DNA of 21,381 nucleotides. Source: a virus. Numbering within the stretch: the stretch's first letter is position 1; each line of letters begins with the position of its first letter. Location of the stretch: IMG/VR virus record IMGVR_UViG_3300000116_000063, positions 16,577 to 37,957 of that record; one strand, written 5' to 3'. A model generated the notes under the pieces. That model did no database searches, had not been told where the DNA came from, and saw nothing but the letters and a program-made list of their open reading frames with translations. Shown here one piece after another: positions 328 through 16,805 of the stretch. The translations under genes were made by a program, and so were the position numbers.

Positions 328-335
328 TATTTATA
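328..335 (-). promoter_or_regulatory. T4-type late promoter box (TATAAATA)
   Basis: The minus strand reads TATAAATA exactly, 25 bases before the ATG at 303 and just after the terminator at 360-387. TATAAATA is the consensus late promoter of T4-like phages, read by RNA polymerase with the phage late sigma factor gp55. Placement between a terminator and a virion gene supports the call. Confidence 0.75.
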
Positions 336-359: not shown

Positions 360-387
360 AAAAAAAGGGGGAATATAAATCCCCCCC
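360..387 (-). terminator. Rho-independent terminator after the 1265-aa fibre gene
   Basis: On the minus strand a run of seven G (387-381) is followed by a nine-base AT-rich loop, five C (371-367) and then seven T (366-360). This is a GC stem plus U tract lying 15 bases downstream of the stop codon of the 402-4199 gene. It separates that unit from the late promoter at 328-335. Confidence 0.85.
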
Positions 388-401
388 ATGATTATTATCT
401 A

Positions 402-3400
402 TTAAACGTTAAATATTCTCCATCCATAAGTATCGTTGTAGAAGATAAGATCAAATGCTGCACCTTCAGTTGTAACCGTGAGATCCGCTGCATCTCCCAT
501 AATAAGTTTGCCATTTCTACCAATAGTAAGTGTATTACTATCGAAAGTCTTAGCAACGTCAAGGAATCTAACAGTGTCTCCTTTATTAGGAGTTGCTGGT
601 AGAGTGACAGTAAATCCACTGGAAGATGTGTCACACCAGAGAGTCTGGAAGACACCAGCACTATAAGTAGTGTTTACATCTACGTTCTGCAGACCACCGA
701 TGGGCACCCAAGCACTACCATTATATGCTTCATGAGATCCAAGAGTTGTATTGAATCTAAACCCACCTTGAATCGGAGCGACAGGTCTCTGTGCGGTAGT
801 TCCTACAGGAGGAACCATCGCTTCAACACCCATGTTACCGCGTGTAATAAATCCGCGAACCGCAAATTCCGTTGGAGTTGCAGTGTTGGAGTTACCACTC
901 ATGGTCTCGTCAGAGGAGAATTCGTTGATCGCCTCACCAATCTGACCACCCAGTGAACCCAGTCTCAGTTCAGTCAAACCAGACAGGTTGAACGCGGAAG
1001 CATCCAGGGTAGCAGCACCAGTTAACTGGTTAACGGAGAAGAAGTCACCAACTCTGAAGTTACCACCTTGGTCAGTAGAGACGAAGAAGACTCTACCAGG
1101 ACCAAAGTTGCTAGTTTCATTACCCTGCTGTACGTTTGATTCGTCAACATTTGGATAGTTGGTTTCAGTTTTGTTACCAACACCAATTGAGAGGAAGTCG
1201 TGACCAGTCAGACGTGCGTTAGAGAATCTAGTTCTAACTTCAACAAAAGAACCACCATCCGATGTCGTAGTACCAATTCCTGCACGAGTATCAGGTGATT
1301 TAGCTCCTTTCTCTGGAGATAACGTTACTGTTACACGACCAGAATATACGACAGGAGTTAATCCAACATCACCTCTATACTGAGTGTATGAAGTTTGGAA
1401 TCCAGTTACATTATTAACAATATAGAATCTTGGTTGACCATTAACTAAGTCACTACCAACACCAACAGTAGTAATACCAATAGCATCACCAACTAATGGT
1501 AAATTATCACCATCAGCAAGATCAAGTTCAAACAGAACCCCTCTCTGTCCGCCTGCAGCACCTGCTGCAGTGGCAAGTTTGATAGCACCCGTTGTGCCTG
1601 CTCCAATGAAGGTAACCTGCTCACCATCTACGAAGGACGTAGTACCAATACCTGCACTTACATCACCATATCCAGGATAGTACTTGAAGTAAATTGCATC
1701 TGCAGAGATTTGATCATTAATAAAGGTTGCTCTTGCACCAGATGTTTCACCAACCATGGTGTTACCGATTGCAACAGTACCACTTACCGTACCAACAGTA
1801 GTATCTGCTTTATCACCAAACAGTCTCAGAGATCTTGGAGTCTCAGCAGTAGAGAATCCAGATGCGATGACACCATAGTCACCATAAGAGTTGTTACCAC
1901 CAACACCACGAATCCTAGAACCACCACCTGCGTAATAACCCCACTTACAATAGTATGTGAAGGAAGAGACGATCTCAGAACCAGCGTCAGAATCAAGAAT
2001 AAATCCAGCACCATCACTCAGAACGTTCGTGAAGGCGTCAAAAACCATAGTGCGGAATCCAGATGAGTGGACAGCACCATCAACCAGAACACCAACACCA
2101 GCACCACCAGTACCACCATCAGTTGGAGGATTACCGAATACGGTACAATCCTTAACGTAAGGAGACTTGTTCAGAATTGGGGAGTTGGGGTTGAATGCAA
2201 AGTAAATACCGCAAGCAGTAGTACCAATACCAGTTCTAACTGTAGTAGAACTGAGTTCAAATGGTTTATTAGAATCATAATCAAATCCAACCATACCATC
2301 AGCGTTCAGACCCTGAATCGTTGTTGCGTCAGAGAGTTGGAACATGGTCTGACGGTTATTAGGAGTCACACCATCAGCAGACAGACCAGAAGCAGGTCTA
2401 ACCTTGGAAGATCTCAGCGTAGAACCAACAACAGAAGTGAATGGTGGAACAACAATTGGAAGTTGCTCGACAAATTCAGAAGAAGATAGTTTAACAACAG
2501 CAGGAGACAGATTCAGAACTTGCCCACCACTAACGTAAGCATGATTAATGGTGGATATACCAGCATTAATTGTAAATGTGTTGTTATCAACAACATCAAT
2601 AACATTAAAGTAAGAAGTAAGAATGTTCCTTGGGAAGAAGGATGTGTCAACACCAACAAATACTGTACCACCAGATACATATACGTGCTGAATTGTAGAT
2701 ACACCAACGTTCATCTCAATTTGCTGAGGTCCGTTGATTGCACTTACTGTGAAGTTAAATCCTTGGCCTCTTGTTCCGTCAGGGAAGATAGTTGTTGTGA
2801 TACCAGAACCACCTGGACAGGTGAATTCAAGGTTATCAAGTCTAATTGTATCTCCAATTTGGAGACCAGTCATTGCTGCACCAACAGTACAAGTAGCAAC
2901 ACCAGCAGAATTATCATACTGGAATGCATTGACTGCATAAGTATTTGCTCCTGAGAGGCAAGAGAACTCAATATCTCTCAGTCTAACAGTAACGTTTGGA
3001 TATAAAATACCATGACTTGGTGCGGTAACTGTAGATAGACCAGTTACTTCATCATAGATGTAATTTGTAATATTTGTAATCGCACTTGCACTATCACATG
3101 CAGTCTTCAGCGTTCTAAACGCCATGTCTGGAGTAACACCATTGAAGGTATCCTTACCCAGTTCTGGGTCAACGTGATAAATTCTAGTAGAATCACCAAT
3201 GGTCATCCATTGGGGAGTCAAATCTGTCCCTATACCGAGAGACTGATAAGTCATTCCAACACCCAGTCTGGTAGGTGCCGTTTGATCTCTAATAAGAATA
3301 TCGCCTGGAGAAGTCAGCAGTGCGTTGGAGTCACCAACAGCCATTGCTCCCCATATTGTCTGATCAGATCCAGGGGTAACATTAAGGAATGAAGTAGATC

Positions 3401-4199
3401 CAAGACCAACGTAGGATGATGATGCATATTCTACTACATCATTTCTATAATATTCGGATATTGTGGAATATGTACCAGCATATCTAAGACCTCTATTGTA
3501 AAGGGTCCATGCGGTTATAGCAACACCAACAACTGTAGAACCAATACCAACACTAAGACCCTTAGTTGGGTGTACATTCTCAGTAGAAGTTGATTCTACC
3601 TGATAAGTATCACCACCAACTGATACCAGATCACCCCTATAATAGGTAACACCAGATTCATAGGTGGTCAAACCTACGGCATTATGACCTTGTGCAAGGA
3701 ATTCCCACTGAGCACCAAGTTCAGTTGGAGGAATTGCCCCCTGTACTGATGTTTGAATTGCAACATAAGAGTTGCCAGAATAGAGAACAACGTCTCCAGT
3801 CTCATATACAGTGCCTGCTTCCCAAGGACCCTCACCATTAAAACCAGCAACATATGCTGTAACATTAGGAGAATCATCTCCAGAAAATGCTAATCCAGCA
3901 GTAGTTCCAATACCTGCAGTAACCCGATATTGAGTATTGCCATACTTGAGAACATCGTTGATTTTATAGAACGTACCTGGAACATATGTTCCTACGTTTC
4001 TAATACCCTCAACATGAGTTTGCCAATACGACGCATCAACATCGTACCACCCCGTCTCGTTTGCTACAGAGGTGTGATTGGTTACAGCAACAAATGTATT
4101 AGCACCAAATTTGACAATATCATCAATGACATATTCGGTGCTAGGAGTCCAGTCGCCTCTCCAATTAAATTTTAGTCTTCCTAATCTAAAATCAGCCAT
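402..4199 (-). CDS. Giant tail-fibre/adhesin-like virion protein (1265 aa) with five CBM-like modules
   Basis: A 1265-residue virion protein, probably a tail fibre or baseplate adhesin. Residues 1-285 hold five degenerate modules of the form W/Y-x-x-G-x-x-Y-x-x-x-D-x-V-x-x-x-x-x-x-Y, at about 14-45, 69-95, 125-150, 175-203 and 240-265. They resemble carbohydrate-binding (CBM5/12, chitin-binding-like) modules. Around residues 342-372 a segment with H-V-D-P-E-L-G-K-D and A-F-R-T-L-K resembles the entry to a parallel beta-helix, and the long Thr/Ser/Gly-rich middle fits such a fold. The last 95 residues form a domain that recurs in the 152-aa protein at 4571-5029 (P-F-T-V/G-F-T-V, L-P, G-D-T, N-L, W-R-I/L-F). 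G-I-G-T-T motifs are frequent. An AAGGAA Shine-Dalgarno precedes the ATG and a strong terminator follows the stop. The structural assignment is secure in kind; sugar binding is inferred. Confidence 0.85.
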   Translation of the reverse strand: MADFRLGRLKFNWRGDWTPSTEYVIDDIVKFGANTFVAVTNHTSVANETGWYDVDASYWQTHVEGIRNVGTYVPGTFYKINDVLKYGNTQYRVTAGIGTTAGLAFSGDDSPNVTAYVAGFNGEGPWEAGTVYETGDVVLYSGNSYVAIQTSVQGAIPPTELGAQWEFLAQGHNAVGLTTYESGVTYYRGDLVSVGGDTYQVESTSTENVHPTKGLSVGIGSTVVGVAITAWTLYNRGLRYAGTYSTISEYYRNDVVEYASSSYVGLGSTSFLNVTPGSDQTIWGAMAVGDSNALLTSPGDILIRDQTAPTRLGVGMTYQSLGIGTDLTPQWMTIGDSTRIYHVDPELGKDTFNGVTPDMAFRTLKTACDSASAITNITNYIYDEVTGLSTVTAPSHGILYPNVTVRLRDIEFSCLSGANTYAVNAFQYDNSAGVATCTVGAAMTGLQIGDTIRLDNLEFTCPGGSGITTTIFPDGTRGQGFNFTVSAINGPQQIEMNVGVSTIQHVYVSGGTVFVGVDTSFFPRNILTSYFNVIDVVDNNTFTINAGISTINHAYVSGGQVLNLSPAVVKLSSSEFVEQLPIVVPPFTSVVGSTLRSSKVRPASGLSADGVTPNNRQTMFQLSDATTIQGLNADGMVGFDYDSNKPFELSSTTVRTGIGTTACGIYFAFNPNSPILNKSPYVKDCTVFGNPPTDGGTGGAGVGVLVDGAVHSSGFRTMVFDAFTNVLSDGAGFILDSDAGSEIVSSFTYYCKWGYYAGGGSRIRGVGGNNSYGDYGVIASGFSTAETPRSLRLFGDKADTTVGTVSGTVAIGNTMVGETSGARATFINDQISADAIYFKYYPGYGDVSAGIGTTSFVDGEQVTFIGAGTTGAIKLATAAGAAGGQRGVLFELDLADGDNLPLVGDAIGITTVGVGSDLVNGQPRFYIVNNVTGFQTSYTQYRGDVGLTPVVYSGRVTVTLSPEKGAKSPDTRAGIGTTTSDGGSFVEVRTRFSNARLTGHDFLSIGVGNKTETNYPNVDESNVQQGNETSNFGPGRVFFVSTDQGGNFRVGDFFSVNQLTGAATLDASAFNLSGLTELRLGSLGGQIGEAINEFSSDETMSGNSNTATPTEFAVRGFITRGNMGVEAMVPPVGTTAQRPVAPIQGGFRFNTTLGSHEAYNGSAWVPIGGLQNVDVNTTYSAGVFQTLWCDTSSSGFTVTLPATPNKGDTVRFLDVAKTFDSNTLTIGRNGKLIMGDAADLTVTTEGAAFDLIFYNDTYGWRIFNV

Positions 4200-9716: not shown

Positions 9717-10637
9717 TTATTTAGTAAACCTAGGATACAACTGTCCTGTGAGTGGTCTGTTTGGTTCGGAAGCAGGATACGCATTAGTAATATTAAGATT
9801 ATAAGTATCCATACGCATAGTTCCGTTTGTCTCACTTATAAGTGTTCTATTAATCTGCTGATCATACAAACTCAACACTTCAGTATCACTTAAAGATCTA
9901 TCACGATACATTCTTACGAGACTAATTCCACCTTCAAAAGATTGACCACTACTAGCAGCATAAGCTCCAATCTGATAATCTAAAGTTGGTTCGATTGCAG
10001 CAGCATAAGTATCCTCAACTCCAAGTTTTCCATTCAACCACCACTTAATAACACCTTCTCTCCTAGTAACAATCGTGTGGTAATTAGTATTAAGAGATAT
10101 TGTCTCTGGATATATCCAATCATTAGATTCGCCATTTATCGCAAGTGTCATACCACCTGTAGAACCAATGGATATAATAAACTTATTATCACTACTGCCA
10201 AACGTATTCCAACTTGCAATTAATGCTGATGGATATGTTGCATTTGGAGTTCCAGTCATATTAAAAGAGATCTCTACCGCAAAATCACCCGCAAAATCAA
10301 AGTCAGAACCATCATCTAATGCTGCATATCCAGTATCTGCAAAGACAATATTTCTTCCATCAAAAGAATAACTACCATAGAACGTAGCATTATTTTGAGG
10401 CAATCCAGTATCATACCAGATAGAAGTTGTACCAATACCACTATGCCTATTAGATGGAACCCCATTATAAGAAAGGGGATCCATGGAATCTAATTCCAAA
10501 ATCTTCTCACTACCAACACCAACACCATCAGGCAAATCTAATCCTATCTTTGAAAATCTCAATTGCTTTGTTGACATTGAAGTTGTAGCAAAACCAACAA
10601 TACCAGATGTTAAATTAGGTAGAGTATAATTTGTCAT
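9717..10637 (-). CDS. Concanavalin A/LamG-like lectin-domain virion protein (306 aa)
   Basis: A 306-residue protein whose residues about 80-270 fit the concanavalin A-like jelly roll of the LamG_3 family. It has a Y-S-F-D-G-x-N strand, D-F-D-F-A-G-D-F-A-V-E-I-S-F, the central Y-H-T-I-V-T-R-R-E-G-x-I-K-W-W-L-N-G-K and the closing F-E-G-G-I-S-L-V-R-M-Y-x-R-x-L-S-x-x-E-V. Such domains bind sugars or proteins on phage tails. I start at ATG 10637, which shares one base with the TGA of the preceding 648-aa gene; an in-frame TTG one codon upstream is less likely. The stop codon TAA at 9717-9719 lies inside the candidate late promoter of the next gene. The context of fibre genes on both sides supports a role in adsorption; ligand unknown. 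Confidence 0.85.
   Translation of the reverse strand: MTNYTLPNLTSGIVGFATTSMSTKQLRFSKIGLDLPDGVGVGSEKILELDSMDPLSYNGVPSNRHSGIGTTSIWYDTGLPQNNATFYGSYSFDGRNIVFADTGYAALDDGSDFDFAGDFAVEISFNMTGTPNATYPSALIASWNTFGSSDNKFIISIGSTGGMTLAINGESNDWIYPETISLNTNYHTIVTRREGVIKWWLNGKLGVEDTYAAAIEPTLDYQIGAYAASSGQSFEGGISLVRMYRDRSLSDTEVLSLYDQQINRTLISETNGTMRMDTYNLNITNAYPASEPNRPLTGQLYPRFTK
9718..9724 (-). promoter_or_regulatory. Possible late promoter box (CTAAATA) overlapping a stop codon
   Basis: The minus strand reads CTAAATA 18 bases before the ATG of the 1543-aa gene and contains the TAA stop of the lectin gene. It is a partial match to TATAAATA. If used, the leader would be only about ten bases long. Moderate support, mainly from position. 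Confidence 0.4.
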
Positions 10638-12583
10638 CAAACAGTCCTTGCACAGAATGCAATTCCACGGGTAGTCGTAGTCTGATTATATGATGCAGTA
10701 ATTACTGTCCAAACTTCACTTGGACTAATAGTAAATGTATCACCCTGTTGAATGTTTGCATTCGCAGCATTGTAGTAGAACTCAACCAATCCAAAATCTT
10801 CAGGCAAATAATATGGGCAAGGAATTAAGTTAATATTAATAGGTATTCCTTTTATAACTGCATTAAAGTTTGCCTCAGGAGATACTCTACTAGTACCATT
10901 CAGTTCTGTCTGATAAGGATACCCTCCCCTAAATGTCATTGGTTGGTCCTCGGATCGATAATAAAGTCTAGCTTGATTAACAGTATTATCCTGCCTATAA
11001 GACATACTTGCATAATAAGATGATACATAATTCTCTGCGGTATCATCATAAGCTTCATATTCTTGCCAAGGAAACTCTGCAGCTCTCTTCTGCCCTCCAC
11101 CATTTGTCTCATAACTACTTGAAAGACTTGTTTTGAAAGTTAACGTTGGAACAGTAGTATTACCCGCAGCAGGAAGTATCTCAGTCATTCCAGCGAGAAA
11201 TACGTGATCATAATCCCATAAATTAGAGTCAAAATTATGAAAGAAAAATGTTGATGCAGTATTACTAGTAAGATGTGTTGAAGATAATGTAGGATATCTA
11301 TAGGAAAATACAACAAATCTTGGATCTAACGCAGATTTAAATAGATTAAGGTCCATATCAAATCCATAATTAGTATTATATGACAATGATATCAATTTAT
11401 TATAATCGTGAGTATTAGTGACCGCAGTATGAGAGAGGTAGCTATTTGAGAAACCACCGATATTGCGGGTTGAAAAATCTAAATTTGATGCCCCAGCAAC
11501 TCTCTTACTATATCCAGTTCCCCCATGTGCATACCTACCATCAGTATTTCCATTTTTTGAATTGGGTGCATATTCAGTTCCATCATAATGCATATATCCA
11601 TTAAATGACCATACATCTAAGATGCCCTCGGTAGAACTTTGCCTAAAAGATCTATAGGTATTTCCATACAATTTATTTGCTGCTATAGAATGTTTTTGAA
11701 TACCATATGGTCGAGCATTAGAAAGATCACTATCCCAGTGATCAGTATTAGTTCCATAACCAACAAGAGTTCTATCTGCAGCATCACCACTCCAAGGTTG
11801 AACAATCACTCTCCCACCCTCAGGTCCTATACTACTATTAGTATAAGATTTGATTAGATATGTTCCTGCTTGACCAATCTTAAACGTATATTCAGAATAT
11901 CCATCAGCAGTATTTAAGTTCCCGTCCCAACCCGCAACTCTCTGAGAACTTGATGATGATGCAGCATTATCTTCATAGATATGAGGACTGACGATACCTG
12001 GATCATAAGAATCACTATAACTATTAGCAATACTTATTGTATCACCTTCTCTAACTGTAATTATACTCACACCTGCGCCAATCACACCCGCTCTGTCAGC
12101 GTTGTGCAAATCAAACGCATACAAGTACCCTCCAACCTCAGCTCCCTGGTATACCATAGTAGTTAATGCTATTGATACTGTTGTTCCATTACCAACTATC
12201 TCATCAACACATACCTTAAATGATAAGTCGGTAGCTCCATTTGAAAATCCACCAATATCATCAGCGGATAAAGTCACCATCTCACCAGAAGTATATCCAA
12301 GTCCAGGGCGATTAACAATAACTTTTTTGACACCTACAGTATCTCTATAAACCGCAAAACTAGATTCCGTACCAACACCAGTGGTTGATTTGGGTCTTAC
12401 ATCTTCATACCAATCTGATGCATTAGTATCTCCACCACCAGTCAATGTACCAAGACCAACAATATATCCCGTAATCTCATCACTAACCCAACCGAGAGAC
12501 ACCATTGCCTGACCCATTTGGGATATGACATCAGAGGATGCCCATCCAGCGTTTACTTTAAACGTGCTTGTAGTAATTGCCAT
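10637..12583 (-). CDS. Virion structural protein (648 aa)
   Basis: A 648-residue protein beginning MAITTSTFKVNAGWASSDVI, a start I associate with cyanophage structural proteins. It is rich in Tyr, Ser, Asn and Gly, has only a few cysteines, and lacks a signal peptide or membrane span. Within the first 125 residues lies an R-P-G-L-G-Y-T-S-G-E segment typical of small beta-solenoid or Ig-like structural domains. A later stretch (about 165-270) with E-G-D-T-I-S-I and G-Q-A-G-T-Y-L-I-K-S-Y resembles a beta-sandwich. The C terminus has G-D-T-F-T-I-S-P-S-E-V-W-T-V-I. It lies five bases downstream of the 901-aa fibre stop, with AGAGGC as a Shine-Dalgarno inside that gene's last codons, and overlaps the lectin gene by one base. 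The three are one unit. Function beyond virion structure is not visible. Confidence 0.8.
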   Translation of the reverse strand: MAITTSTFKVNAGWASSDVISQMGQAMVSLGWVSDEITGYIVGLGTLTGGGDTNASDWYEDVRPKSTTGVGTESSFAVYRDTVGVKKVIVNRPGLGYTSGEMVTLSADDIGGFSNGATDLSFKVCVDEIVGNGTTVSIALTTMVYQGAEVGGYLYAFDLHNADRAGVIGAGVSIITVREGDTISIANSYSDSYDPGIVSPHIYEDNAASSSSSQRVAGWDGNLNTADGYSEYTFKIGQAGTYLIKSYTNSSIGPEGGRVIVQPWSGDAADRTLVGYGTNTDHWDSDLSNARPYGIQKHSIAANKLYGNTYRSFRQSSTEGILDVWSFNGYMHYDGTEYAPNSKNGNTDGRYAHGGTGYSKRVAGASNLDFSTRNIGGFSNSYLSHTAVTNTHDYNKLISLSYNTNYGFDMDLNLFKSALDPRFVVFSYRYPTLSSTHLTSNTASTFFFHNFDSNLWDYDHVFLAGMTEILPAAGNTTVPTLTFKTSLSSSYETNGGGQKRAAEFPWQEYEAYDDTAENYVSSYYASMSYRQDNTVNQARLYYRSEDQPMTFRGGYPYQTELNGTSRVSPEANFNAVIKGIPININLIPCPYYLPEDFGLVEFYYNAANANIQQGDTFTISPSEVWTVITASYNQTTTTRGIAFCARTV

Positions 12584-12588
12584 TATCG

Positions 12589-15294
12589 TTATGCCTCTAG
12601 TTGTAGAATGGTGAGATTTGCAGTAATTGTTTGCGTCGAACCAGATAGATTTTGTATGGAGACGTAGATTTTATTTGTAACAGGTTCATCCATGTTGCCA
12701 CCCATAGCAAAAGGTGTAATCACTTGCTGAGTGGAGATTCCAGTAGTAACAACCTCTGCAATCACACCACTACCAGGTGCTGGATCTTCTCCAACACTTC
12801 TACTCACATCATTTGATCTAGATGTACTATCAGTATATAGTCGGATCCAACCTGTTGTGGATAGACCAACCTTCATCAGAGCATAAGACTTCTGACCAAT
12901 AATATCAGTGTTACCAATTCCAAGATTAGCAATCGATGTTGTCACTCCACTGACAATGTTTCTTGACTGAGCACCACCACCAGATCCAGTGACTGTTGCA
13001 ATGCCAGCAGAGGCAACTACATTCAGACCAGAGGCAAAGTTAATTACAGTAGCAGCAGCACCGACACCAACACCATCGTCCTGAATATTAACACCAGTTC
13101 CTGCAGCAGTTACATTCACAAGATTGGAACCATCAATTGCAGGAAGTGCTCCTGTAAGATTAGATGCTGCAAGAGATCCAGAGAAGGAAGTTGCAGTAAG
13201 AGCACCACTTACATTTACATCATCTAATTCAGTATGACCATCAACATCAATAGATCCATTAAAGTTGACAGCACCAGCAAAAGTAGAAATACCTGATACA
13301 TTTACATCATCAAGTTCAGTTTGTCCATCAACATCTAAGTTACCATTAGCATCAATAGCACCAGCAAAAGTAGTAATACCTGATACATTTACATCATCAA
13401 GTTCAGTTTGTCCATCAACATCTAAGTTACCATTAGCATCAATAGCACTAACAATAATACTTGGAGAACCAGTAAGACCGCCAGCATTAGTTGCAAAGGA
13501 TGCAGTATTTGATCCAGTGATTGTGGCAATACCTGCACTCAATACTACGCTAAGGTTATTACCAAAGTTGATTGTCGCTGCAGCACCGACAGGAGAATCA
13601 CTATCTCTAATCTCAACACCAGATCCAATAGCAGTGACACCAGTCAATGCAGAACCATCAAGAGATGGAAGAGCACCCGTCAACTGACTTGCAGGAAGTG
13701 TTCCATAGAATGATGTTGCAGATACAATACCAGCAACAGTCAGTGCCTCAGTAATAATAGTAGTTTTAATTCCTACATCACCACTAGAGTTAATAAACTG
13801 TCTGATATTACCTTGACCATCAGACAGAACAACATTATTAGATAAAGCTCTAATATCTAAATTATTCTGATTGCCATTGTATGCACCAAGCAGAACGTTA
13901 TAAGATCCAGATGTAAGATTCTGTCCTGCTCGGTCACCAATAGCTACATTATACTGACCAGTGTTTACTGCATAGTGTGCAAGTTGTCCGATAGATATAT
14001 TATGCCCATCTCCACCACTATTTGATCCTAATGCTTGATCACCAATAGCAATATTGGCAGCACCACTACCACCAGTCAAGTCACCAATTTTTATATTCTC
14101 TCCACCTGTACCAAACTTAATTCTAGTTGGTGCGCTTATCTCTCCGTTTAATACAATATTACCATCAAGATCAATATTACCCTTAACGGTAAGCATCTGT
14201 GTTGGTATAGTTGTACCAATACCAACCTTAGAAGTTGTACCAATACCAACTCCGTTTGTTCCTTCAAAGAATCCTGTTGCACCACCACTGAATGTTGCAG
14301 TTATAATCGCAACTTGTCCAGTCTGAGTAACAAGAATATTATCACCAGCAGTAATTGTGGTAACACCTACGGTATTAACGCCCGTCAGTTGAGATCCATC
14401 ACCAACAAACTTCAGAGCAGTTACAATACCAGCAATATTAACATCAGTTCCAATACCCAGAGGTAAGTTTACAGACCCACTACCACTCAGAATTTGAACT
14501 GACTGTTGTCCATCGGGAGATAAGAAATATCCAGAGATTGCTTTAAGACTCTGTGCTGTCAGTATTCCAGTGAACTCCGCATCAGTTGCAGCAAACTTTG
14601 TTGCTGTAAGAATACCAACATTCAGGTTTGGTGTTCCAGTAAGTCCTGCTGCAGCAGTTGCCAGTCCAGCGATGGAAGCATAGTCAGCGGTAGAAGCATT
14701 GCCAGCAGCAGTTGCAACTCCAGCAACGTCAGCATATGTAGAGACCCCTACATTGATTCCTGTAAGTTCTGATCCATTACCAACAAACAAACCACCAGTA
14801 ATTACGCCAACAATAACGTTGGGTGATCCAGTAAGTCCCTGTGCGTTTGTAGCAATCCCTGCTGTATCAGCATACGTGGAGATACCTGCATAAGGAGCAA
14901 ACGCAGTCTCTCCAGATTGTGTGGCATACGTAGCGTTAGTTGCAAGTCCTGCTACAGAAGCATACGTTGATACTCCAGCAACTAAAGCATATGTTGATAC
15001 ACCCGCAATTGGTGAATAAGTTGATATACCAGCAACAATTGCATAGGTTGATACACCAGCGATTGGTGCATATGAAGCAATTCCAGAACTAATTGCATAG
15101 TTTGCAACAGTTGCAACTCCAGATACTGGTGCATATGAAGCAATTCCAGCAGACTCACTGTAAGTTACAACAAGTCCAGAAGAGGTTATACCACTTAAAG
15201 TTGTTGATAATGCGAAGGTATCAACAGCAATCAAATTAATTATCTGTCGTTGTTGTTCAAAAGTTGAATTTACACCTACATTAAAAGCGGGCAT
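12589..15294 (-). CDS. Modular tail fibre with YadA-like head repeats (901 aa)
   Basis: A 901-residue fibre. The N terminus (MPAFNVGVNSTFEQQRQIIN) looks like an attachment segment shared among marine phage fibres. Residues about 48-150 are nine-residue repeats of the form G-V/I-S/A-T-Y-A-x-x-A. Next come segments with K-F-V-G-D-G-S-Q-L-T-G-V, a recurrent fibre motif. Residues about 395-475 contain N-I-A-I-G, N-I-S-I-G, N-V-A-I-G and N-V-L-L-G units, the left-handed beta-roll signature of YadA-type trimeric adhesin heads. Three 29-residue units with D-G-x-T-E-L-D-D-V-N-V-S-G follow near 618-695. The last about 125 residues form a compact knob (L-Y-T-D-S-T-S-R-S-N-D, P-G-S-G-V-I-A-E-V). Trimeric assembly is inferred from the repeats. 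Its AGGAG site may be controlled by the hairpins at 15307-15347. Confidence 0.85.
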   Translation of the reverse strand: MPAFNVGVNSTFEQQRQIINLIAVDTFALSTTLSGITSSGLVVTYSESAGIASYAPVSGVATVANYAISSGIASYAPIAGVSTYAIVAGISTYSPIAGVSTYALVAGVSTYASVAGLATNATYATQSGETAFAPYAGISTYADTAGIATNAQGLTGSPNVIVGVITGGLFVGNGSELTGINVGVSTYADVAGVATAAGNASTADYASIAGLATAAAGLTGTPNLNVGILTATKFAATDAEFTGILTAQSLKAISGYFLSPDGQQSVQILSGSGSVNLPLGIGTDVNIAGIVTALKFVGDGSQLTGVNTVGVTTITAGDNILVTQTGQVAIITATFSGGATGFFEGTNGVGIGTTSKVGIGTTIPTQMLTVKGNIDLDGNIVLNGEISAPTRIKFGTGGENIKIGDLTGGSGAANIAIGDQALGSNSGGDGHNISIGQLAHYAVNTGQYNVAIGDRAGQNLTSGSYNVLLGAYNGNQNNLDIRALSNNVVLSDGQGNIRQFINSSGDVGIKTTIITEALTVAGIVSATSFYGTLPASQLTGALPSLDGSALTGVTAIGSGVEIRDSDSPVGAAATINFGNNLSVVLSAGIATITGSNTASFATNAGGLTGSPSIIVSAIDANGNLDVDGQTELDDVNVSGITTFAGAIDANGNLDVDGQTELDDVNVSGISTFAGAVNFNGSIDVDGHTELDDVNVSGALTATSFSGSLAASNLTGALPAIDGSNLVNVTAAGTGVNIQDDGVGVGAAATVINFASGLNVVASAGIATVTGSGGGAQSRNIVSGVTTSIANLGIGNTDIIGQKSYALMKVGLSTTGWIRLYTDSTSRSNDVSRSVGEDPAPGSGVIAEVVTTGISTQQVITPFAMGGNMDEPVTNKIYVSIQNLSGSTQTITANLTILQLEA
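13271..13444 (-). repeat. 87-bp tandem duplication in the 901-aa fibre
   Basis: Bases 13271-13357 and 13358-13444 are head-to-tail copies that differ at a single position (a/t near the start of each copy). Each encodes 29 residues, so the frame is kept. A third, clearly diverged copy follows on the plus-strand left side (about 13205-13270). The near identity marks a very recent duplication. Confidence 0.95.
14917..15153 (-). repeat. Degenerate 27-bp coding repeats in the 901-aa fibre
   Basis: This stretch encodes successive nine-residue units such as GVSTYAIVA, GISTYSPIA, GVSTYALVA and GVSTYASVA, with a 27-base period visible in the DNA (repeated gcatatgttgatac-like words on the plus strand). 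The period and in-frame unit fit a fibrous coiled or beta-solenoid shaft that can change length by slippage or recombination. Confidence 0.8.
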
Positions 15295-15306
15295 AGCGAT
15301 TATTAT

Positions 15307-15324
15307 CTCCTAAAAAAATAGGAG
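15307..15324 (-). promoter_or_regulatory. RBS-sequestering hairpin before the 901-aa fibre
   Basis: On the minus strand CTCCTA (15324-15319) and TAGGAG (15312-15307) are perfect complements around a six-T loop. TAGGAG contains the AGGAG Shine-Dalgarno for the ATG at 15294. The 5' arm overlaps the 3' arm of the terminator stem at 15321-15347, so the two hairpins cannot form together. Confidence 0.55.
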
Positions 15325-15347
15325 GGATCGCACCAGGCAACCCCTCC
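15312..15347 (-). terminator. Rho-independent terminator between the 461-aa and 901-aa genes
   Basis: The minus strand has an 11-pair stem (15347-15337 with 15331-15321, two G-T wobbles), a five-base CTGGT loop, and then TA followed by seven T. It begins 27 bases after the stop codon of the 461-aa gene. The form is that of a strong intrinsic terminator. No exact late promoter box is visible between it and the 901-aa gene, so expression of the latter may rely on readthrough. Confidence 0.85.
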
Positions 15348-15373
15348 ATAACAAAGTATATTGTGCAAAGTAA

Positions 15374-16759
15374 TCAGTCGAGGCTGACATTCAGAGTAAC
15401 TTTGATTTGGTCACCATTGTTCTGAATGTTGTAAGGACCATTTGTGAATCTCTCAGAGAAGAAGATACTGCTGTAGAGAGTTGCACTTCCGATACCTGTC
15501 ATTGCAGGAGTGGTAGTGAAGGTGCTTTCATCCTCAGTGGTATGAATTGTGTAAGTACCAGAGGTTGTAGTTGTGTTAGCAGCACCAGCAGCAACATAAA
15601 TTACATCACCAGCAACCAGTCCGTGAGTAGTAGCACCAACGCTTACTTCAGCATAGTTGAAGTAAACAATATTACCAGTAGCGTTCTGAATGTTGTTTTG
15701 TAATTCACTGCTAAGGTATACTCTACCAGTCTTTTCATCATAACCAGTAATAAGTGTATCGTCAAGGATGGCAGCAACCTCACCACCGATGTTACCATGA
15801 GTAACACCCATACCTACACAAATATCCTCACCAATTTCTTGATAGAATGTAGTGACTCCAGATACAGTTCCTGTGTTTTTCTTATCAAGAACGATAGTAG
15901 TGGTATTCATGATACCAACAACTCTTGCTCCTTCAGCAACTCCAGAACCAATAACTCTCTGTCTAGTATTGATACCTACGTTTGTATTTACAGTCAGTGT
16001 AAACTCCGATCCTACACCAACAGCAGTTGGTTCAGAAGAGAATGGGAATAGATCGACAAATGTATTTCCAATAGTTCCGCTTGTCTGTGCCTTGGAAATA
16101 GTTAATCCAGTTCCAACATTAACTGCATGCTCAACACCATTCAGAGATACTGGCAAATTGTTTGCTCTAATCAAATAATATCCGTAAATATTATTAGCAG
16201 CAGAAGTAAACGTATAAGTTTGCTCAGGGTAAGATGCAGTTGTTGTGCCAACACCAAACTCAAGTGCCTGACTAGAGAAGGTAGCAGCGTTCTTTACAGT
16301 AAGAACAATAGTGTTACCATCAATCGCTGCAACAACAGCGTTGTTACCAACATTGCCACCGCTTACGTAATGTCCGACCGCGATATTGGAAACAGAGGAT
16401 ACTGTAATCGTATACTCATTAATGTTACCACTGCCAGTAGTTGTAGCAATTGGATTGAGAATGGTTCTTACAGACCACTCACTGCCGTTCAAGAATATTC
16501 CATACTGTCTGGAATAGTCCTCATCATGACGTGCATTGACGATCGGCGGGTAACCTGTAGAAGGTTCTGTTCCATAACCCACAAGACCTGTAGCGTCATA
16601 TGGTTCATAATATGCTGTCTGAGAGGGAACATCAGTCTCAGTAGGAACTGTATTTGAAGTATACAGTTTTAAAATAAGGTTTCTTGGGATATTTCTATCA
16701 GAATTAACCAGATATCTAAGCGACTGAAGTTCACCGTTGTCTGATACTAATAAAGCCAT
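15374..16759 (-). CDS. Virion structural protein (461 aa)
   Basis: A 461-residue beta-rich protein. Its first 45 residues (M-A-L-L-V-S-D-N-G-E-L, L-R-Y-L-V-N, then N-L-I-L-K-L-Y-T-S-N-T-V-P) follow a pattern common to short phage structural proteins, here extended by a long Thr/Gly/Val-rich region. The extension contains repeated blocks such as V-S-S-V-S-N-I-A-V-G-H-Y-V-S-G and V-I-G-S-G-V-A-E-G-A-R-V-V-G-I, which look like tandem small beta domains. The last 80 residues (T-H-G-L-V-A-G-D-V-I-Y-V, then F-F-S-E-R-F-T-N-G-P-Y) form a terminal domain. ATG 16759 has AGGAG about ten bases upstream. An exact late promoter box lies at 16798-16805 and a terminator follows, so the gene appears to be its own unit. 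Exact virion position unknown. Confidence 0.85.
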   Translation of the reverse strand: MALLVSDNGELQSLRYLVNSDRNIPRNLILKLYTSNTVPTETDVPSQTAYYEPYDATGLVGYGTEPSTGYPPIVNARHDEDYSRQYGIFLNGSEWSVRTILNPIATTTGSGNINEYTITVSSVSNIAVGHYVSGGNVGNNAVVAAIDGNTIVLTVKNAATFSSQALEFGVGTTTASYPEQTYTFTSAANNIYGYYLIRANNLPVSLNGVEHAVNVGTGLTISKAQTSGTIGNTFVDLFPFSSEPTAVGVGSEFTLTVNTNVGINTRQRVIGSGVAEGARVVGIMNTTTIVLDKKNTGTVSGVTTFYQEIGEDICVGMGVTHGNIGGEVAAILDDTLITGYDEKTGRVYLSSELQNNIQNATGNIVYFNYAEVSVGATTHGLVAGDVIYVAAGAANTTTTSGTYTIHTTEDESTFTTTPAMTGIGSATLYSSIFFSERFTNGPYNIQNNGDQIKVTLNVSLD

Positions 16760-16797: not shown

Positions 16798-16805
16798 TAT
16801 TTATA
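16798..16805 (-). promoter_or_regulatory. T4-type late promoter box (TATAAATA)
   Basis: Exact TATAAATA on the minus strand, 38 bases before the ATG of the 461-aa gene and immediately adjoining the hairpin arm that ends at 16806. Position and exact match support a late promoter. Confidence 0.75.

Follow-up and report, generated by a model that had tools for sequence, protein, structure and literature searches.

A conserved predicted intrinsic terminator ahead of the tail fibre genes of a marine cyanophage and probable read-through into the fibre block

It is known that in phage T7 genes 11 and 12, which lie behind the terminator Tphi, are expressed only by read-through (PMC5592923). In T4-like phages, predicted terminators conserved in position follow gene 23 and separate gene 35 from gene 36 (PMC1524935), and the T4-type late promoters of cyanophages have been treated in PMC3037559 and PMC2984593. 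The locus described here resembles Tphi in that a putative terminator stands right after a structural gene bearing a promoter, and the genes behind it have no promoter (here, no exact late promoter). Unlike T7, it belongs to another phage family with another RNA polymerase, its upstream gene codes for a protein other than the capsid, and read-through, established in T7 (PMC5592923), is here presumed. With the 35/36 terminator it shares the predicted intrinsic type, the conserved position across relatives and the location between tail-fibre genes, but its flanking genes have their matches in phrog_10467 and phrog_6942 and are at most putative counterparts of gp35 and gp36. Attenuators and translational riboswitches are also comparable, as they combine a terminator stem with a possible helix that shares one of its arms and could cover the ribosome-binding site (RBS); here, however, an antiterminator made ahead of the decision is lacking, the alternative helix is not conserved, a leader peptide is unsupported, and the leader has no match in Rfam.

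The window, that is, the whole stretch of 21,381 nt that was analysed, comes from a cyanomyovirus contig of 37,957 bases, in which a minus-strand leader separates a 461-aa gene from a 901-aa fibre gene (Table 1). The nearest annotated relatives at the terminator locus are T4-like Synechococcus phages, e.g. S-CAM1, S-CAM3 and S-SSM7. The family matched by the upstream protein carries no function label, although a distant homologue in S-SCSM2R is annotated as 'tail fiber rope protein'; the AlphaFold model of the protein is weak (pLDDT 60), and a search by sequence yielded no convincing relative with a solved structure. The fibre block behind the terminator spans 10.2 kb. The 307-aa protein encoded in it (9717-10640, minus strand) has a lectin-like Laminin_G_3 domain, and a carbohydrate-binding module, CBM_5_12, is present in a 1265-aa protein (402-4199, minus strand).

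Table 1. Features of the fibre locus, in window coordinates.
Feature	Position	Strand	Basis
Predicted late promoter of the 461-aa gene, TATAAATA, 46 nt before the start	16798..16805	-	exact match
461-aa structural gene	15374..16759	-	ORF; phrog_10467 match, E 5.8e-163
Predicted terminator hairpin (5' arm 15347-15337, loop 15336-15332, 3' arm 15331-15321)	15321..15347	-	folding, covariation
U-tract, UAUUUUUUU	15312..15320	-	read from sequence
AGGAG, likely ribosome-binding site of the 901-aa gene	15307..15311	-	read from sequence
Possible alternative helix, not supported as functional	15296..15331	-	GCGAU/AUCGC, 15331-15327 with 15300-15296; CUCCUA/UAGGAG, 15324-15319 with 15312-15307
901-aa fibre gene	12589..15294	-	ORF; phrog_6942 tail fiber protein, 2.1e-18
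Rest of the fibre block, ORFs of 648, 307 and 1543 aa	5069..12583	-	ORF list

The sequence-only reading of the leader had claimed an intrinsic terminator with an 11-pair stem and seven U, and such a structure is indeed found, the U run being preceded by UA. Seven of the 11 pairs are G-C, the loop comprises five nucleotides, and the stem, at -18.5 kcal/mol, forms with P > 0.95 in the folded full leader. Between the stop codon of the 461-aa gene and the stem there are 26 nt; the tail ends at AGGAG, and the ATG of the 901-aa gene is situated 26 nt past the stem. Among 120 random single-strand windows, one held a stem of at least 10 pairs followed by a T-rich tail; the present stem is the sole instance in the window. 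Thus the locus has what is expected of an intrinsic terminator, a stable G+C-rich stem-loop, backed by covariation, and a U-tract directly 3' of the stem. The strength of the terminator is uncertain, because an A interrupts the U-tract at its second position. In E. coli, ribosomes cease to repress a terminator when the distance from the stop codon to the stem exceeds 27 nt (PMC4824070); the spacing observed here is near this limit, and hence the terminator should mostly work.

For comparison, 80 viral loci with the upstream gene and five annotated phage records were collected, yielding 57 distinct leaders. A hairpin with a U-rich tail was observed in all of them, 22-40 nt past the stop codon, and in all distinct leaders found later (n = 8; 20-30 nt). 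Since the search selects a single best hairpin per leader, on condition of a T-rich tail, a few weak hairpins (L003, L061) could have arisen by chance. In the alignment of 33 leaders, 98.6% of cells in the terminator stem are paired (0/500 shuffles as high) and 18 cells are altered on both sides, with no shuffle as high, so that the covariation check proposed along with the sequence-only reading shows compensatory changes in the stem. Pairing falls to 54-62% when the stem partner is shifted along the alignment, and the RNAalifold output on the leader alignment is the terminator helix alone. The hairpin and U-tract of the putative terminator are thus conserved by comparison, together with the compensatory changes. 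A dispersed repeat family was rejected, as the hairpin occurs at most once per searched record (one of the searches behind this covered the GGGGNTTGC form only). A short TTAT(G) immediately before the stem (15348-15352, minus strand) is seen in most relatives, even in those with intervening bases (L077, L006).

The comparison also shows that the hairpin is independent of the type of the downstream gene. The downstream genes form groups in whose N-terminal parts no similarity to the corresponding part of the window fibre could be detected, yet the terminator is retained. As it is retained before genes of unrelated families, the predicted terminator belongs to the upstream gene. In one relative, L034, the leader before the stem nearly matches the window, the stem has diverged through compensated changes, and a different fibre follows. 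In another, L026, whose leader is similar to that of L018, the RBS position reads AAGAG instead of AGGAG and the start position ATA instead of ATG; a gene of another family with its own AATAAATA comes next, and the terminator is intact. This stretch of L026 may be a decayed leader.

The predicted late promoter of the upstream gene is conserved as well. The exact ATAAATA core is found 40-63 nt before the start of this gene in all 51 distinct relatives, with approximately four expected by chance, and before the upstream gene in 8/8 relatives found later. On the other side of the hairpin, an exact core at most 60 nt from the next gene was observed in 3/51 relatives (chance about one), and in the remaining 48, as in the window, the gap has no exact late promoter. 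Hence, two features of a Tphi-type arrangement are found: a predicted promoter before the upstream gene, and a gap free of exact late promoters. The absence of an exact core from the gap, also claimed in the sequence-only reading, agrees with the scan of the window, where none occurs between 5069 and 15374, and so all four ORFs there (901, 648, 307 and 1543 aa) are without one; the 648-aa ORF is preceded, at a distance of 96 nt, by a site with one mismatch to the core. For promoter types other than late, the gap was covered by a consensus scan alone; a -10-like GATAAT in it was set aside, as relatives do not retain it. All seven exact cores in the window are on the minus (coding) strand, several of them 30-50 nt before ORF starts, and their number is not above chance.

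Taken together, late transcription of the 461-aa gene probably stops at an intrinsic terminator, and, because the fibre block has no exact late promoter, this block is probably served by read-through. The dependence of the fibre on read-through, suggested earlier, is therefore supported as probable at the level of sequence by the terminator and the lack of a late promoter in the gap. The late promoter before the 461-aa gene would drive its transcript, the hairpin and U-tract would end most of this late transcription, and the fraction of polymerases reading through would transcribe the fibre block, so that the terminator would lower the amount of fibre RNA in proportion to that of the upstream RNA. 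We infer that termination occurs in vivo, that its efficiency is incomplete, and that its purpose is stoichiometric. The fast-changing fibre genes mostly have no exact late promoter before them, and therefore leakiness of the terminator may set the fibre dosage. For the fibre block of a group of marine cyanophages, this provides a tentative transcription map, in which a conserved promoter-gene-terminator unit stands ahead of fast-changing fibre genes.

Vice versa, the terminator could be complete, insulating the upstream unit, and the fibre block would then be transcribed from a diverged late promoter or a host-type promoter missed by the consensus. The relatives with an exact late promoter between the terminator and the next gene, L026 among them, are in line with this. 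So is the other end of the window, where a second predicted terminator, GGGGGGGATTTATATTCCCCC followed by seven T (366-387, minus strand), comes after the 1265-aa gene and is itself followed by an exact TATAAATA (328-335, minus strand) and an ORF; however, this is an ordinary end-and-restart, unlike the fibre locus. Between the stem and the ATG of the fibre gene there are only 26 nt, with no conserved promoter-like motif, and we consider complete insulation unlikely.

The sequence-only reading had further suggested a two-state leader, in which the terminator fold frees the RBS, and, once this fold is opened, its 3' arm masks the RBS, tuning fibre translation. The pairing itself exists: CUCCUA/UAGGAG, which indeed shares the 3' arm of the terminator, can form at -7.0 kcal/mol alone, and five further pairs, GCGAU/AUCGC, absent from that reading, extend it. 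When the 5' arm is made unavailable in folding, this pairing is strong, and the RBS is fully paired with the aid of GCGAU/AUCGC. In the full leader, folding of both states favours the terminator, whereas the masking helix has P = 0.02-0.06, and even in the terminator state AGGAG is not free, as had been supposed, but only partly open (per-base unpaired probability 0.20-0.69). There is no known trigger for opening an 11-pair stem. Moreover, the 3' half of the second helix lies at or past the end of the U-tract, and since the helix needs RNA made after the U-tract, it forms only past the termination decision and cannot make it.

Conservation in homologous leaders, proposed at the outset as the test of the second hairpin, was not observed: 68% of cells of the extended helix are paired across relatives, versus 98.6% for the terminator. 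The helix is disrupted in many relatives, among them the L019/L020/L023 sister clade, which has lost it despite the same end of the 3' arm and the same fibre family, and in many relatives AGGAG is altered or missing altogether. Some measures are somewhat above shuffles (as high in 3/500 for the percentage paired, 11/500 for double-changed cells and, weakly, 23/500 for the covariation score), and two further ones are not; relatedness alone can suffice for this modest excess. The arm pairs with its own RBS slightly better than with partners swapped among lineages (-7.30 vs. -6.80 kcal/mol), and approximately 9% of permutations are as good. In the window, the own RBS pairs with the arm at -11.7 kcal/mol, compared to about -8 (at best -8.2) for other AGGAG sites, and this advantage is due to the five extra pairs, the core helix pairing almost equally well with such unrelated sites. 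Thus the two-state leader appears very improbable, and the second hairpin most likely arises incidentally, because CCUCC in the 3' arm resembles an anti-Shine-Dalgarno sequence; a terminator arm of this kind can imitate an RBS-masking switch, which is a trap when a single sequence is read. Accordingly, of the proposed tuning of the ratio between the fibre and the upstream protein, the part that could stand is the one acting via terminator read-through, and not the one acting via the switch. A conserved terminator before fibre genes would be of an already known type, and the switch, which would have been the new part, is not supported.

There is a very slim chance that, in the clade of the window only, the extended helix, with its 11 possible pairs, silences the translation of fibre mRNA that cleavage has deprived of the 5' arm of the hairpin; if so, the fibre would be made from intact read-through RNA only. 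It is hardly credible that ribosomes entering a short translated ORF from an ATG at the stem base open the terminator: this ATG is at or adjoins the stem base in most leaders and the frame is open through the stem in many, but the ATG is missing in several lineages and has no Shine-Dalgarno sequence ahead of it in the window, the frame is shifted by changes in loop length, the stop positions are scattered, with no advantage over the two alternative frames, and, with neither frames nor stops conserved, an ORF through the hairpin was rejected.

Returning to the unit formed by the upstream gene and its predicted terminator, the leader and the approximately 100 nt that end with the stop codon before it show the highest DNA identity to the window in L034, L026 and L007; identity then declines within the fibre gene, as though modules of the fibre had been swapped near the leader.
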